From positions 3,712,501-3,776,500 of the forward strand of contig NZ_CP095554.1 in assembly GCF_023078375.1 (NCBI RefSeq): a DNA stretch of 64,000 nucleotides. Direction: 5' to 3'. A program made the translations under genes and the position numbers. The notes under the pieces are model-generated. The model made no database searches, had not been told where the DNA came from, and saw nothing but the letters and a program-made list of their open reading frames with translations. The DNA comes from Roseomonas gilardii subsp. gilardii (lineage in GTDB: Bacteria > Pseudomonadota > Alphaproteobacteria > Acetobacterales > Acetobacteraceae). Below are positions 3,078-46,939 of the stretch, in pieces. How positions within the stretch are numbered: position 1 is the first letter of the stretch; every line of letters begins with the position of its first letter.

Positions 3078-3949
3078 TCAGCGCTGGGAGGCCAGGGAGG
3101 GCGCCTCGCTCACCCGCACGAGGCTGACCGTGGTCTGGCCGAACCAGCGGTTCGGAATCTCCAGCCGCACGGGCAGGAACGGGCCGCCGGGATGGAGCTG
3201 TGCGAGCCAGGCATCGCCCTCCTGCAGGCGCTGGCGCTCCGCCGGGCCGTCGTCCAGCTTGAAGCCATGCGTCAGCCGGCCGCTGAAATGGCAATGCAGG
3301 GCCCGGCCCGGCCAGTGGCCCGACAGCATCTCCCAGCCCAGGGTCCGGGCCGACAATTCGCTGCGGCGGCGCCCGTCGAAGACCGCCGCCTGGGCCTCGC
3401 AGCGCCCGCTGTCCTGCACCTGGCGGAGCAGCGCCGCCACCGCGGTCAGGCTGTCCATGGTGCCGCGCTGGGCCGCGGCGGGCACCGGCTCCCGCTCATC
3501 CGTATCCAGGGGCGGCAGGAGCTGGCGCAGCACCGGCTGGCCGTCCACATAGTCCACGACCGTGCTGCGCTGCTCCCCGCCCCAGACGCCCTGGGCGACA
3601 TAGCGCCGGGGCCGGGGCCTGCCATCGGCCCAGGCCCCGATCGCGCGGGTGGTCATGGTGCCGCTGCGGAAGAGCGAGGCCACGCCGCGCATATGGGTGC
3701 GGACCTCCAGCACATAGCCGCCCGACAATCGGACAGGTCGAAGCTGGCCTCGACATCCATCACGGTCAGCCCGGCGGCCCGGACCGTGTAGCTGGCCTTC
3801 ATGGGCTGGGCGCGGGCCGGAAGGGCGGCCAGGATGAGCGTCAGGATAGCCAGGAGAGCGGGCGGGAAGGTGGACCGGAGGCCCCGCCACGAGGCAGGCC
3901 GGGAAATATCCCCGCAGAGGGCGCGCGGGACGACTGGGCCTGTCCGCAT
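3078..3949 (-). pseudogene. DUF3108-type exported protein, single frameshift
   Basis: The first reading frame gives MRTGPVVPRA, a hydrophobic signal segment (PPALLAILTLILAALPARAQP) and KASYTVRAAGLTVMDVEASF, then loses homology. The remainder of a DUF3108-like periplasmic protein (GGYVLEVRTHMRGVASLF, PRRYVAQG and onward to the stop) continues in another frame. The frames meet at 3726-3727, where restoring one base would rejoin ...SFDLSD with GGYVLEV.... The ATG at 3949 is preceded by GGAGG at good distance. Family function is unknown; members are exported and about 230-290 residues long, matching the restored length. Either a sequence error or a recent inactivation. Confidence 0.75.
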
Positions 3950-20089: not shown

Positions 20090-21189
20090 ATGGAAAGCGC
20101 GCTGACCGAGGCGATCCGCGCGGCGCTCGCCGAGGTGAGGGACCCCCAGACGGGGCTGGACGTGGTCTCCGCGGGCTGGGTCCAGGGCCTGGTGGCGCGC
20201 GACGGGCTGGTGCAGTTCGCGCTGGAGGTGCCGCGCGAGCGGGCCCGGGCGCTGGAGCCGGTGCGCGCGCGGCGGAGCGCGCCGTGGCCGCCGTGCCGGG
20301 CGTGCTGTCGGCGACCTGTGTGCTGACCGCCCACCGCGCCGCGCCGCCGGCGGACGCGCCCCGGGCCGTGCGCCCGCCGCCGGGGCAGAACAAGATGCTG
20401 CTGCCCGAGGTCGGCGCCATCGTCGCCGTGGCCTCCGGCAAGGGGGGCGTCGGCAAGTCCACCACCGCCGTGAACCTCGCCGTCGCGCTGGCGGCGCAGG
20501 GGCTGCGGGTCGGGCTGCTGGACGCGGATATCTACGGCCCTTCCCTGCCGCAGATGCTGGGCACGAAGGAGCGGCCGCGCAGCGCCGGCCAGCGGATCGA
20601 GCCGCTGTCCCGCTGGGGGCTCAAGGCCATGTCCATCGGCTTCCTGGTGGATGAGGAGACGGCGATGATCTGGCGCGGCCCCATGGTGATGGGCGCGCTG
20701 GAACAGATGCTCTCCCAGGTCGAATGGGGGGCGCTGGACGTGCTGGTGGTGGACATGCCGCCCGGCACGGGCGACGCGCAGCTCACCATGAGCCAGCGCG
20801 TGCCGCTGAAGGGCGCGGTGATCGTCTCCACGCCGCAGGACGTGGCGCTGATCGACGCGCGGCGCGGGGTGCGGATGTTCGAGAAGGTCAATGTCCAGGT
20901 GCTCGGGCTGATCGAGAACATGTCCTATTTCTGCTGCCCCCACTGCAACCACCGTTCCGAGATCTTCGGCCATGGCGGGGCGCGGGCGGAGGCGGAGAAG
21001 CTGGGCGTGGAGTTCCTGGGCGAGTTGCCGCTGCGCCTGGCGATCCGCGAGACCGCCGATGCGGGCACGCCGATCGTCCTGGCCCGGCCGGACAGCGAGG
21101 AGGCCGCCGCCTATCGCGCCATCGCGGCGCGGGTCTGGGAGAAGGCCGGTGCCGAGACCCCCGCCGGCCCCCGGATCACCCTGGAATAG
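20090..21189 (+). pseudogene. apbC: Mrp/ApbC iron-sulfur cluster carrier ATPase, single frameshift
   Basis: Cytosolic P-loop ATPase that binds and transfers Fe-S clusters. The first frame encodes a MIP18/DUF59-like N-terminal domain (MESALTEAIRAALAEVRDPQ ... GWVQGLVARDGLVQFALEV) up to LEPVR. The continuation (AERAVAAVPGVL..., then the ATPase part) is one frame away, with the switch at about 20264-20270 in a GC-dinucleotide run. Restoring one base gives a 366-residue Mrp. The ATPase part has the deviant Walker A VASGKGGVGKS, DADIYGPS, VDMPPGTGD and the CxxC motif in YFCCPHCNH. Mrp is usually important, so a sequence error is likelier than decay. Confidence 0.85.
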
Positions 21190-24239: not shown

Positions 24240-24360
24240 GTCTTCCTCCCTGTTCCGCGGGCGCTCTGCGGCGCCGGCGGGAAGGATGGAGCCTGGGCGC
24301 GGGAAGCGGCAAGCCGTCGCGGACACCCCCTCGATTTCCGTCCGGGGATCGCCTATATGG

Positions 24361-24690
24361 GTGTTGCTCACCTTCGGGTGGCTATGGCGATAAACGGCAG
24401 GTGGAATAAGTGTTGCGGACCCGGGGGCAGTGCCCGGCGCCTCCACCATTCATCCCTCGAGGTCGTTCGGGGCAGGATGGGGGCGAAACAGGTTCGACGC
24501 GCATGGTAAAGCCCTGTCTTTTGCCCGGCATTGTACCGCCGTTATCGGGCTAATTCACAAGTGCCAACGATAACAGCCGCGAGGCTGTGGCGCTCGCTGC
24601 CTAAATAGGTAAGCGCCGTCCGGGGGGAACGGGGCAACAGAATCCCCCCACTCATCTCTGCCCATGGGCTCCCCCGGCGCGTTCTCCGCC
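24361..24690 (+). ncRNA. ssrA: tmRNA (SsrA), circularly permuted two-piece form
   Basis: Rescues stalled ribosomes and tags the nascent protein for degradation. Order is acceptor piece first, as in Alphaproteobacteria. The 3' piece ends at 24448 with CGCCTCC-A-CCA, after a T-arm-like stem CCGGG/CCCGG. About 30 intervening bases follow (24449-24478). Then comes the 5' piece, starting GGGGGCGAAACAGGTTCGAC at 24479. GGGGGCG pairs fully with CGCCTCC and contains a G-U third pair, the alanyl-tRNA synthetase identity element. The tag frame lies at 24563-24604 and pseudoknot/hairpin-prone GC sequence follows. The outer ends (about 24361 and 24690) are estimates. The T loop, GGCAGTG, departs from the usual TTCRANY. 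The adaptor gene sspB lies immediately downstream. Confidence 0.9.
24563..24604 (+). other. ssrA: tmRNA tag reading frame
   Basis: GCC AAC GAT AAC ... GCC TAA encodes ANDNSREAVALAA and stops. The AND start and the hydrophobic LAA end are the hallmarks of SsrA tags: LAA is read by ClpX and the N-terminal AND(N) portion is the SspB-binding part. With the alanine carried by tmRNA itself, the full tag would begin AANDN. Confidence 0.93.
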
Positions 24691-24796
24691 TCCGGGGCTC
24701 TTGCCAATCCTGTCCGCTGGCGCCATCCCACGGCGATCCTACTGGCGCCACCCCGCCATCATTCCTAAAATCCGGGGCAACAGGATTGACTGTGAC

Positions 24797-25320
24797 ATGA
24801 GTGACCAGCCCCCCTGGCCGACAGTCTGCTGCCCTATGACCGCTGGACCGAGGACGCCATGCGCGAGGTCGCGTTGCGCGCCCTCGAATACGCGGCGGAA
24901 CACGGCCTGCCCGGGGAACATCACTTCTACCTGAGCTTCCGGACCGACGCGCCCGGCACGATCGTCCCCGGCCATCTGCGGGCGAAATACCCGCAGGAGA
25001 TGACGGTGGTGCTGCAGCACCAGTTCTGGGACCTGAAGGTGGACCGCGAGGCCCGGCAGATCTCCGTCGGCCTCAGCTTCGGCGGCGTGTCCTCCACGCT
25101 GGTCATCCCCTTTGCCGCCCTGACCGGCTTCCTGGACCCGCATGTCCGGGTCGGGCTCCGCTTCAACCCGCCGGACGGCGCCGGGGAAGCCCCGGAGGAG
25201 CCGAGCCTGCTGCCCCCCGCCGAGGCGCGCGCGGCGGAGCCCGAGGCCCCGCCGCCCTCCGGCCCGGCCGAGGTGGTCAGCCTGGACGCCTTCCGCCGGC
25301 GCCCCAGCGGCAAGGACTAG
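24797..25320 (+). CDS. sspB: SspB, ClpXP adaptor for SsrA-tagged proteins (apparent frameshift near start)
   Basis: Alpha-type SspB binds SsrA tags and hands substrates to ClpXP. The core ([34 protein letters not shown]... [25 protein letters not shown]) and an acidic, proline-rich tail ending [15 protein letters not shown] are intact and continuous from about 24859. Upstream, ATG 24797 gives MSDQPP and then breaks frame in a run of six C (24809-24814). Seven C would give [25 protein letters not shown], the normal SspB N-terminus, and a 174-residue protein. Likely a homopolymer error. The C-terminal DAFRRR-type peptide is the ClpX-docking element. The gene follows ssrA, whose tag it recognises. 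Confidence 0.88.
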
Positions 25321-46155: not shown

Positions 46156-46939
46156 ATGCGTTCGCTCTGGACCGCCGGCACGGGCATGATGGCCCAGCAG
46201 ACCAATGTGGAGGTCATCTCCAACAACATCGCGAACATGAGCACCACCGGCTACAAGCGCCGGCGGGCCGTTCCAGGACCTGATCTACCAGAATGTCCGC
46301 CGCGTCGGCTCGCAGAGCTCCGACACGGGCACCAGCCTGCCGCAGGGCGCGCAGGTCGGCCTCGGCGTGCGCACCGCCGCGATCTACCGCATCCACGAAC
46401 AGGGCAACCTGAACCAGACGGACAACAAGTTCGACCTGGCGATCAAGGGGAACGGCTTCTTCCAGGTGCAGCTCCCCTCGGGGGAGACCGCCTATACCCG
46501 CGACGGCACCTTCGGCCTCGCCGCCGACGGCACCATGGTCACGGCGGAAGGCTTCACCGTCCTCCCCGGCATCCAGGTGCCGGCCAATGCCACCGACGTC
46601 ACCATCAACGCGACCGGCGAGGTGCTGGCCAAGATCGCGGGGCAGGAGCAGCCGCAGAATGTCGGGCAGGTCCAGCTCGCCGTCTTCGCCAACGAGGCGG
46701 GGCTGGAGGCGATGGGCGACAACCTGCTGATGGCCACCCCGGCCTCCGGCGCGGCACAGGTCGCGGCCGCCGGGCAGCCCGGCTACGGCAACGTCATGCA
46801 GGGCTTCGTGGAGACCTCGAACGTCAACGTGGTGCAGGAGATCACCAGCCTGATCACCGCGCAGCGCGCCTATGAGATGAATTCCAAGGTCATCACGGCG
46901 AGCGACGACATGCTTTCCACCCTGACGCGGCTGAAGTGA
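46156..46939 (+). pseudogene. flgG: Flagellar basal-body rod protein FlgG, single frameshift
   Basis: Distal rod protein. The first frame gives [37 protein letters not shown]. The rest ([20 protein letters not shown]..., [47 protein letters not shown], ending LSTLTRLK) is in another frame. The junction is at 46270-46271, where two bases are missing (family consensus RAEFQDL needs GCCGAGTTC, the sequence has GCCGTTC). One inserted base would also restore frame. Repaired length is about 261-262 residues, normal for FlgG. The stop overlaps flgA. Confidence 0.85.

Follow-up and report, generated by a model that had tools for sequence, protein, structure and literature searches.

Why should a gene for tmRNA stand directly ahead of a gene for SspB, an adaptor of the ClpXP protease? 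The arrangement is found in a window of DNA from Roseomonas gilardii subsp. gilardii (the window being the whole stretch analysed, 64,000 nucleotides), and an initial annotation proposed that the closeness of the two genes could allow tagging and degradation to be regulated together. The adjacency is not special to this genome; it is an old trait of the class Alphaproteobacteria, already published in part. The explanation to which we lean is that of an ordinary trans-translation locus, with ssrA transcribed from a promoter of its own and an ancestral or near-ancestral pair of genes kept, likeliest, by read-through into sspB. Less expected is a hairpin in the RNA which seemingly determines some of the tag sequence. 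The class-wide spread of the pair, the printed record of conserved flanking genes, a one-base break in sspB and the covarying hairpin in the tag frame were all absent from the initial annotation.

The ssrA and sspB genes

A two-piece, permuted ssrA was recognised by ARAGORN and by both relevant Rfam models. ARAGORN placed a permuted tmRNA at 24352–24695 on the plus strand, with the tag ANDNSREAVALAA. The model alpha_tmRNA (RF01849) was matched over its full length at 24327–24652, with 224.7 bits (E 8.6e-64; gathering score 50), and tmRNA_permuted (RF04321) scored 147.9 bits (gathering score 47), so that the covariance fit on which the initial annotation had staked its claim of a two-piece tmRNA held. 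The three concur on a permuted tmRNA gene at ∼24361–24652, plus strand, which is present in single copy, the genome having no other alpha_tmRNA match. In another genome (G095, contig C5:288509–288849) the main tmRNA match is accompanied by a weaker one, also above the Rfam cut-off (72.8 bits).

The acceptor piece is encoded first (24361–24448, plus strand, its 5′-end approximate; RF01849, RF04321 and ARAGORN) and terminates in CGCCTCCACCA, the CCA occupying 24446–24448. There follows a spacer of 30 bases (24449–24478, plus strand), delimited by the Rfam alignment boundaries and variable among aligned relatives, which would be expected to be excised. The coding piece (24479–24652, plus strand, as aligned by Rfam) opens with GGGGGCG (24479–24485), which forms the acceptor stem with CGCCTCC (24438–24444); in three of 16 aligned relatives (L018, L020 and L022) the two sides read GGGGACG and CGTCTCC, a change on both sides of the stem. 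Conservation ends near 24652 in these 16 (L004 and L010 left out). The tag reading frame (24563–24604, plus strand, stop included), located with ARAGORN and in the sequence itself, encodes ANDNSREAVALAA, which has an alanine resume codon and a hydrophobic end. Acceptor piece, spacer, GGGGGCG and tag frame are all as the initial annotation had described them.

A two-piece tmRNA of Caulobacter was reportedly described by Keiler in 2000. The window gene shares with the permuted tmRNA of Caulobacter and other Alphaproteobacteria (RF01849) the permuted order, the tRNA-like pairing, the GCC resume codon and a tag of the form AND...LAA; it differs in that its tag has 13 residues and a middle that appears to form a covarying hairpin closed by a GNRA loop. 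The transcript would be cut into an acceptor and a coding piece, which would then pair to give a working tmRNA. Such cutting, presumed for this species, has been detected in the cell by Northern blots for Orientia (PMC7335160) and for Sinorhizobium (PMC2245857), according to the accessible parts of both papers.

Transcription of the permuted ssrA would begin at its own promoter. A putative one is visible in the sequence at 24329–24358 (plus strand), with CCTCGA at about –35 and CTATAT as the –10 element (24353–24358). It falls inside the RF01849 match, and a simple sigma-70 scan of the window locus returned no match at it. Of 74 class-wide loci, 60 were alignable by their –10 element, and the consensus of these is a CTT block followed by CTATAT; the window lies outside those 60.

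As the initial annotation had also stated, sspB lies shortly downstream on the same strand: its conserved ATG (24797) begins 144 bases past the tmRNA 3′-end given by Rfam and 101 past that given by ARAGORN. The gene (24797–25320, plus strand) provides the only SspB match (PF04386) in the genome, with 142.1 bits against a cut-off of 27, and its product resembles solved alphaproteobacterial chains (PDB 2nys, with 120.8 bits, 2qas and 2qaz); a search of NCBIfam with the window SspB returned no match. With the solved chains it shares the PF04386 domain and the C-terminal tail VVSLDAFR, and in the comparison with 2nys the 10-residue stretches containing this tail align. The conserved C-terminal tail of SspB binds ClpX. 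As an adaptor of ClpXP, the protein would in this class be expected to read the tag written by tmRNA. Among named organisms its closest counterpart is the SspB of Roseomonas mucosa, with 87% identity; identity to that of its nearest relative, a congener (genome G011, locus L007), is 91%.

The window sspB differs from the genes of the solved chains in that its frame is broken near the start by one base in the assembly. The conserved ATG is one base out of frame with the body of SspB, which is open at 24805–25320, and the earliest ATG, GTG or TTG of that open frame is at 24859; an unbroken frame from the start codon is missing from this assembly. The break was located in a run of C at ∼24809–24814, which is one base longer in the closest relatives, and in all 14 congeners an ATG stands in frame at the corresponding place. 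Taken as called, the sequence would describe a true pseudogene or a frameshifted allele, the adaptor having been lost or shortened to the 153 amino acids that follow a start at 24859, and the want of any earlier ATG, GTG or TTG fits such a loss. This is improbable, however: the remaining frame is open and keeps its 91% identity to the nearest relative, and short deletions of the same kind affect other genes of the window. An 80-kb stretch of G011 has 63 predicted genes, 46 of them with a counterpart in the window, and three of these 46 counterparts carry one- or two-base deletions with respect to G011 (near 3726, 20269 and 46290). A first, unfiltered frame-break test had flagged 29 of 166 frames, most of which were taken as shadow frames in GC-rich DNA, and it was replaced by one with a codon-composition filter. 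The completeness of the genome (97.58) is also lower than that of 13 of its 14 congeners (98–100; the other is at 96). Since short frame breaks recur elsewhere in the window, the break in sspB is probably an assembly error. The three other broken genes seem to be conserved ones; judged by eye, the gene broken near 20269 resembles an Mrp/ApbC ATPase, and that broken near 46290 resembles flgG.

Gene order across the class and the phylum

The initial annotation had pointed to other Acetobacteraceae as the place to look for the same gene order, and there it recurs. In the genus, ssrA is followed by sspB with a gap of at most 271 bases in 14 of 15 genomes and of 1,055 in the remaining one (measured from the ARAGORN end to the SspB match). 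Among 80 public loci seeded with SspB, many of them from Acetobacteraceae, 67 have a same-strand ssrA no more than 400 bases upstream and four have it 442–2,420 bases away; ARAGORN finds no ssrA in the other nine, where the upstream sequence is shorter than 700 bases in four cases and 2.4–4 kb long in five.

To cover the class, an even draw was made over the Alphaproteobacteria (114 genomes from 114 genera), in which a tmRNA above cut-off was present in 108 genomes, SspB in 107 and both in 105. In 74 of these 105 the sspB gene has the orientation of ssrA and lies no more than 300 bases past it; the distance from the end of the RNA model to the Pfam match is then 36–285 bases, with a median of 104.5. 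Five further genomes have the genes 0.3–1.5 kb apart and five have them 1.5–10 kb apart, five have them on one contig at a greater distance or in another order or orientation, and 16 have them on different contigs, where a contig break is indistinguishable from a real separation. As the pair is thus not linked within 300 bases on one strand in 31 of 105 genomes, linkage is probably dispensable. Elsewhere in the phylum, 33 of 37 genomes have a standard tmRNA above cut-off, and 32 of them also have an SspB match (several of these matches being weakly above cut-off). The genes are adjacent in none of these 32 genomes: in 25 they are on different contigs, and in seven they share a contig, with 164 kb or more between them. 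The difference between the class and the rest of the phylum gave a Fisher p of 5e-14 for all genomes and of 1.4e-5 for same-contig genomes only. Because it is frequent across the class sample and absent from the rest-of-phylum sample, the pairing looks ancestral, or nearly so, in Alphaproteobacteria, and would have been lost later in some lineages. The two genes also have the marks of an operon: one strand, a short gap and retention over distant relatives (the 74 of 105 class genomes).

At ten loci of the class sample and four other loci, ssrA and sspB are 0.4–7.5 kb apart. With regard to mobile elements as the cause of lost linkage, six intervening frames, drawn from five of the 14 loci, gave no integrase in Pfam; they correspond to a cation efflux protein, an M19 dipeptidase, a metal-dependent hydrolase, a chromate transporter, a TetR protein and one protein without a family. 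Two separate alphaproteobacterial loci, L190 and L061, seemingly have the same two kinds of gene between ssrA and sspB: those of L190 encode a PF10118 hydrolase and an M19 dipeptidase, and those of L061 were compared by eye.

The protein CC2102 is presumably the SspB of Caulobacter. It appears among alphaproteobacterial signature proteins, in a group of mostly hypothetical function, in the accessible part of PMC1182365. Conservation of the genes flanking tmRNA on both sides in alphaproteobacteria was reported in 2007 (PMC2245857), where, in the text available, a functional association was deemed uncertain because smpB was unlinked. Likewise from accessible portions of the respective papers, SMc01450 follows ssrA, in the same orientation, in Sinorhizobium meliloti (PMC2573895), and the tmRNA of Pelagibacter is flanked by other genes (PMC2704228). 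Within the available text of this literature on tmRNA gene neighbourhoods, the neighbour is nowhere named SspB, and no statement that sspB adjoins ssrA was found. In the window's genome smpB is ∼0.92 Mb from ssrA, and the linked partner here is therefore sspB rather than smpB. The locus is thus like the smpB-ssrA neighbourhoods, treated as a functional neighbour pair in the accessible part of PMC2245857, in that a tmRNA gene stands beside the gene of a dedicated partner; it differs in that this partner is a degradation adaptor and not a ribosome-binding cofactor.

Transcription across the ssrA-sspB gap

The gap between the genes (24653–24796, plus strand, 144 bases) is little conserved in alignments, and a simple scan of it gave no terminator-like and no sigma-70-like site. 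Across the class, the distance from the ssrA 3′-end to a mechanically chosen sspB start is at most 40 bases in 14 of 74 gaps and at most 60 in 28, and the shortest are therefore too small to accommodate both a terminator and a separate promoter. The 14 gaps of at most 40 bases count against an alternative explanation, to which we give somewhat less than an even chance: that ssrA and sspB are two independent units, sspB having its own promoter in the gap, with the order kept through a stable neighbourhood of core genes and not through co-regulation. Support for such a promoter varied with the threshold used. When this was strict (∼90% of ssrA promoters pass it), six of the 74 gaps had an ssrA-type promoter, with 4.84 expected from shuffles; when it was lax (3 bits), promoter-like sites were in excess, 25 against 13.5 in shuffles that preserved base composition only, and this excess favours independent units. 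A second ssrA-like promoter as the rule in these gaps thus had no support at the strict threshold and some excess at the lax one. In the window, a possible –10 element, TAAAAT (24766–24771), is shared with two near relatives (loci L006 and L007) and also speaks for a separate sspB promoter, for which a gap as long as 144 bases has room. The want of close linkage in 31 of 105 class genomes is equally in keeping with independence; yet the order is kept class-wide though the gap diverges even between near relatives, and the genes are 0.3–10 kb apart in just 10 of 105 genomes.

Terminator-like sites occur in two of the 74 class gaps and in 0–4 gaps over ten rounds of shuffling, so they are no commoner than in shuffles, which speaks for read-through. 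Within 120 bases after ssrA they are present in 4 of 32 non-adjacent genomes (a set that includes three without SspB and omits G079, with a contig end, and G120, with a partial RNA match) and in 3 of 74 adjacent ones, and are not clearly commoner in the former; as a discriminator of adjacent from non-adjacent ssrA genes, terminators were dropped because a difference of 3/74 against 4/32 is too weak. It also counts against read-through that in GC-rich genomes termination may proceed via Rho.

Read-through from ssrA into sspB, for which we infer a better than even chance across the class, would mean that part of the transcription begun at ssrA continues into sspB, the tag-writer and the tag-reader being made together. 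The persistence of the pair would then be due, likeliest, to ssrA-started transcription partly reaching sspB. The tmRNA is made in great excess over the mRNA of the adaptor, and a shared transcript would therefore need strong attenuation or processing. Processing at the 3′-end may free the sspB message, and some lineages, possibly that of the window, may have an additional sspB promoter in the gap. Co-regulation of ssrA and sspB, as first proposed, is plausible. If the genes are co-transcribed, the supply of tag and tag-reader would be set in one step, matching ribosome rescue to proteolysis across the class. The pairing further offers a positional cue by which either gene may be located when sequence likeness is weak.

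The window gap is ∼25 bases longer than that of the nearest relatives, and an imperfect tandem copy of CTGGCGCCAYCCC is found in it at ∼24717–24754. The sequence GGGGCAACAG, part of the tmRNA 3′ hairpin (24631–24640), is found again at 24774–24783, 13 bases before the sspB ATG, and this recurrence is likewise seen at L006, L007 and L017, the last being the R. mucosa locus. Its presence in both the tmRNA and the sspB leader at these four loci could be read as a functional, non-transcriptional link, in which RNA elements of the leader mimic tmRNA to regulate sspB. We regard this as very improbable: in the class sample, all 73 other gaps lack the core GGCAACAG, the repeat being limited to a few close relatives, and the copy may be due to chance or be the product of a duplication.

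A predicted hairpin within the tag

The tag frame can be folded into a two-part hairpin (24560–24594, plus strand), to which both folding and covariation point. Its outer stem pairs 24560–24565, with the resume codon inside, to 24589–24594; its inner stem pairs 24573–24578 to 24583–24588 and is closed by a GCGA loop (24579–24582). The fold has an energy of –17.6 kcal/mol with a z of –1.58, and 15 of 200 shuffles fold equally well; with a z of merely –1.58, energy alone is therefore unconvincing, and it is the comparison of relatives that persuades.

For a comparison within the family (Acetobacteraceae), a search pattern was used that fixed the AND start and the tag's end, together with most of the loop, and left codons 5 and 8 free. 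It matched 58 of 299 genomes, belonging to 19 of 102 genera; the comparison covers these 58 and, of the 241 without a match, individual loci only. In each of the 58 pattern-matched genomes, codons 5 and 8 are exact reverse complements of each other, despite the presence of six tag sequences, with the middles SREAV (40 genomes), VREDV (7), GRETM (5), VRENV (3), GRETV (2) and VREDM (1). More than one tag type occurs within each of six genera, giving at least eight switches on the assumption that genera are single lineages with no transfer of ssrA between them. A two-part hairpin folding the tag frame would demand just such coupling, since codons 5 and 8 must then be reverse complements (Ser-Ala, Gly-Thr, Val-Asp and Val-Asn). 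In the same hairpin the Arg-Glu between these codons appears to encode the GNRA loop, and the choice of Val or Met at residue 9 goes with the third base of codon 4.

Among 16 distinct sequences, 160 of 160 cells are paired and five pairs have changed on both sides. Double-change cells number 24 against a shuffled mean of 7.6, with 0 of 500 shuffles as high, a count that, like the others of this comparison, is not a probability because the pattern fixed some positions and the sequences are akin. When the partner was shifted by one to three columns, at most 50% of cells were paired. Two other measures were not outstanding: how many pairs showed any double change (a number reached by 50 of 500 shuffles) and how many further pair types there were (reached by 500 of 500). 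The paired positions fixed by the pattern were 1–3, 12, 17, 27, 29 and 30; the pair 4–28 was limited to G or C, positions 22 and 31 were free against fixed partners, and the pairs 13–26 (13 being C or T), 14–25, 15–24 and 16–23 were left open.

In the class as a whole, 60 of the 76 distinct tag segments have a resume region that pairs with sequence farther downstream (34.7 from shuffles; mean z –0.85), as do 48 of 50 from the SspB-seeded public loci (24.7 from shuffles) and 6 of 6 from the genus (3.4 from shuffles), all of these counts omitting tags that do not begin with AND. As this pairing is above that of shuffles, a helix at this place may be general though weak. The structure lines of both Rfam models (RF01849 and RF04321) show the tag region unpaired.

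A helix in this part of tmRNA has been proposed before. According to the accessible part of PMC1168896, much of the tag-frame region could not be settled by comparative analysis and helix m was proposed from energies, with m1 and m2 predicted for Caulobacter; a slightly different helix of E. coli, from footprinting, is also given there. Like helix m, the window hairpin involves the resume codon and lies within the tag frame; it differs from helix m in having the support of double changes. Against a structural role counts the report that tagging is unaffected when much of the tag frame is exchanged for unrelated sequence (PMC4236655, in the text available). No description of coupled tag codons was found in the accessible text of the open-licence literature on tag-frame structure.

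In Roseomonas-type Acetobacteraceae, it is quite probable that RNA structure, not protein function, writes the middle of the tag, and this would lend comparative support to helix m. The coupled substitutions suggest a tag altered in its middle while the AND start and the ALAA end, the expected sites read by SspB and ClpXP, stay fixed. The hairpin suggests a peptide degron whose variable residues obey base pairing, a result of specialist interest, and the weakly supported helix m becomes directly testable.

A different tag middle, QPAAMLV, was seen at one locus (L220, genome G030), where a hairpin with a GCAA loop also occupies the same place.
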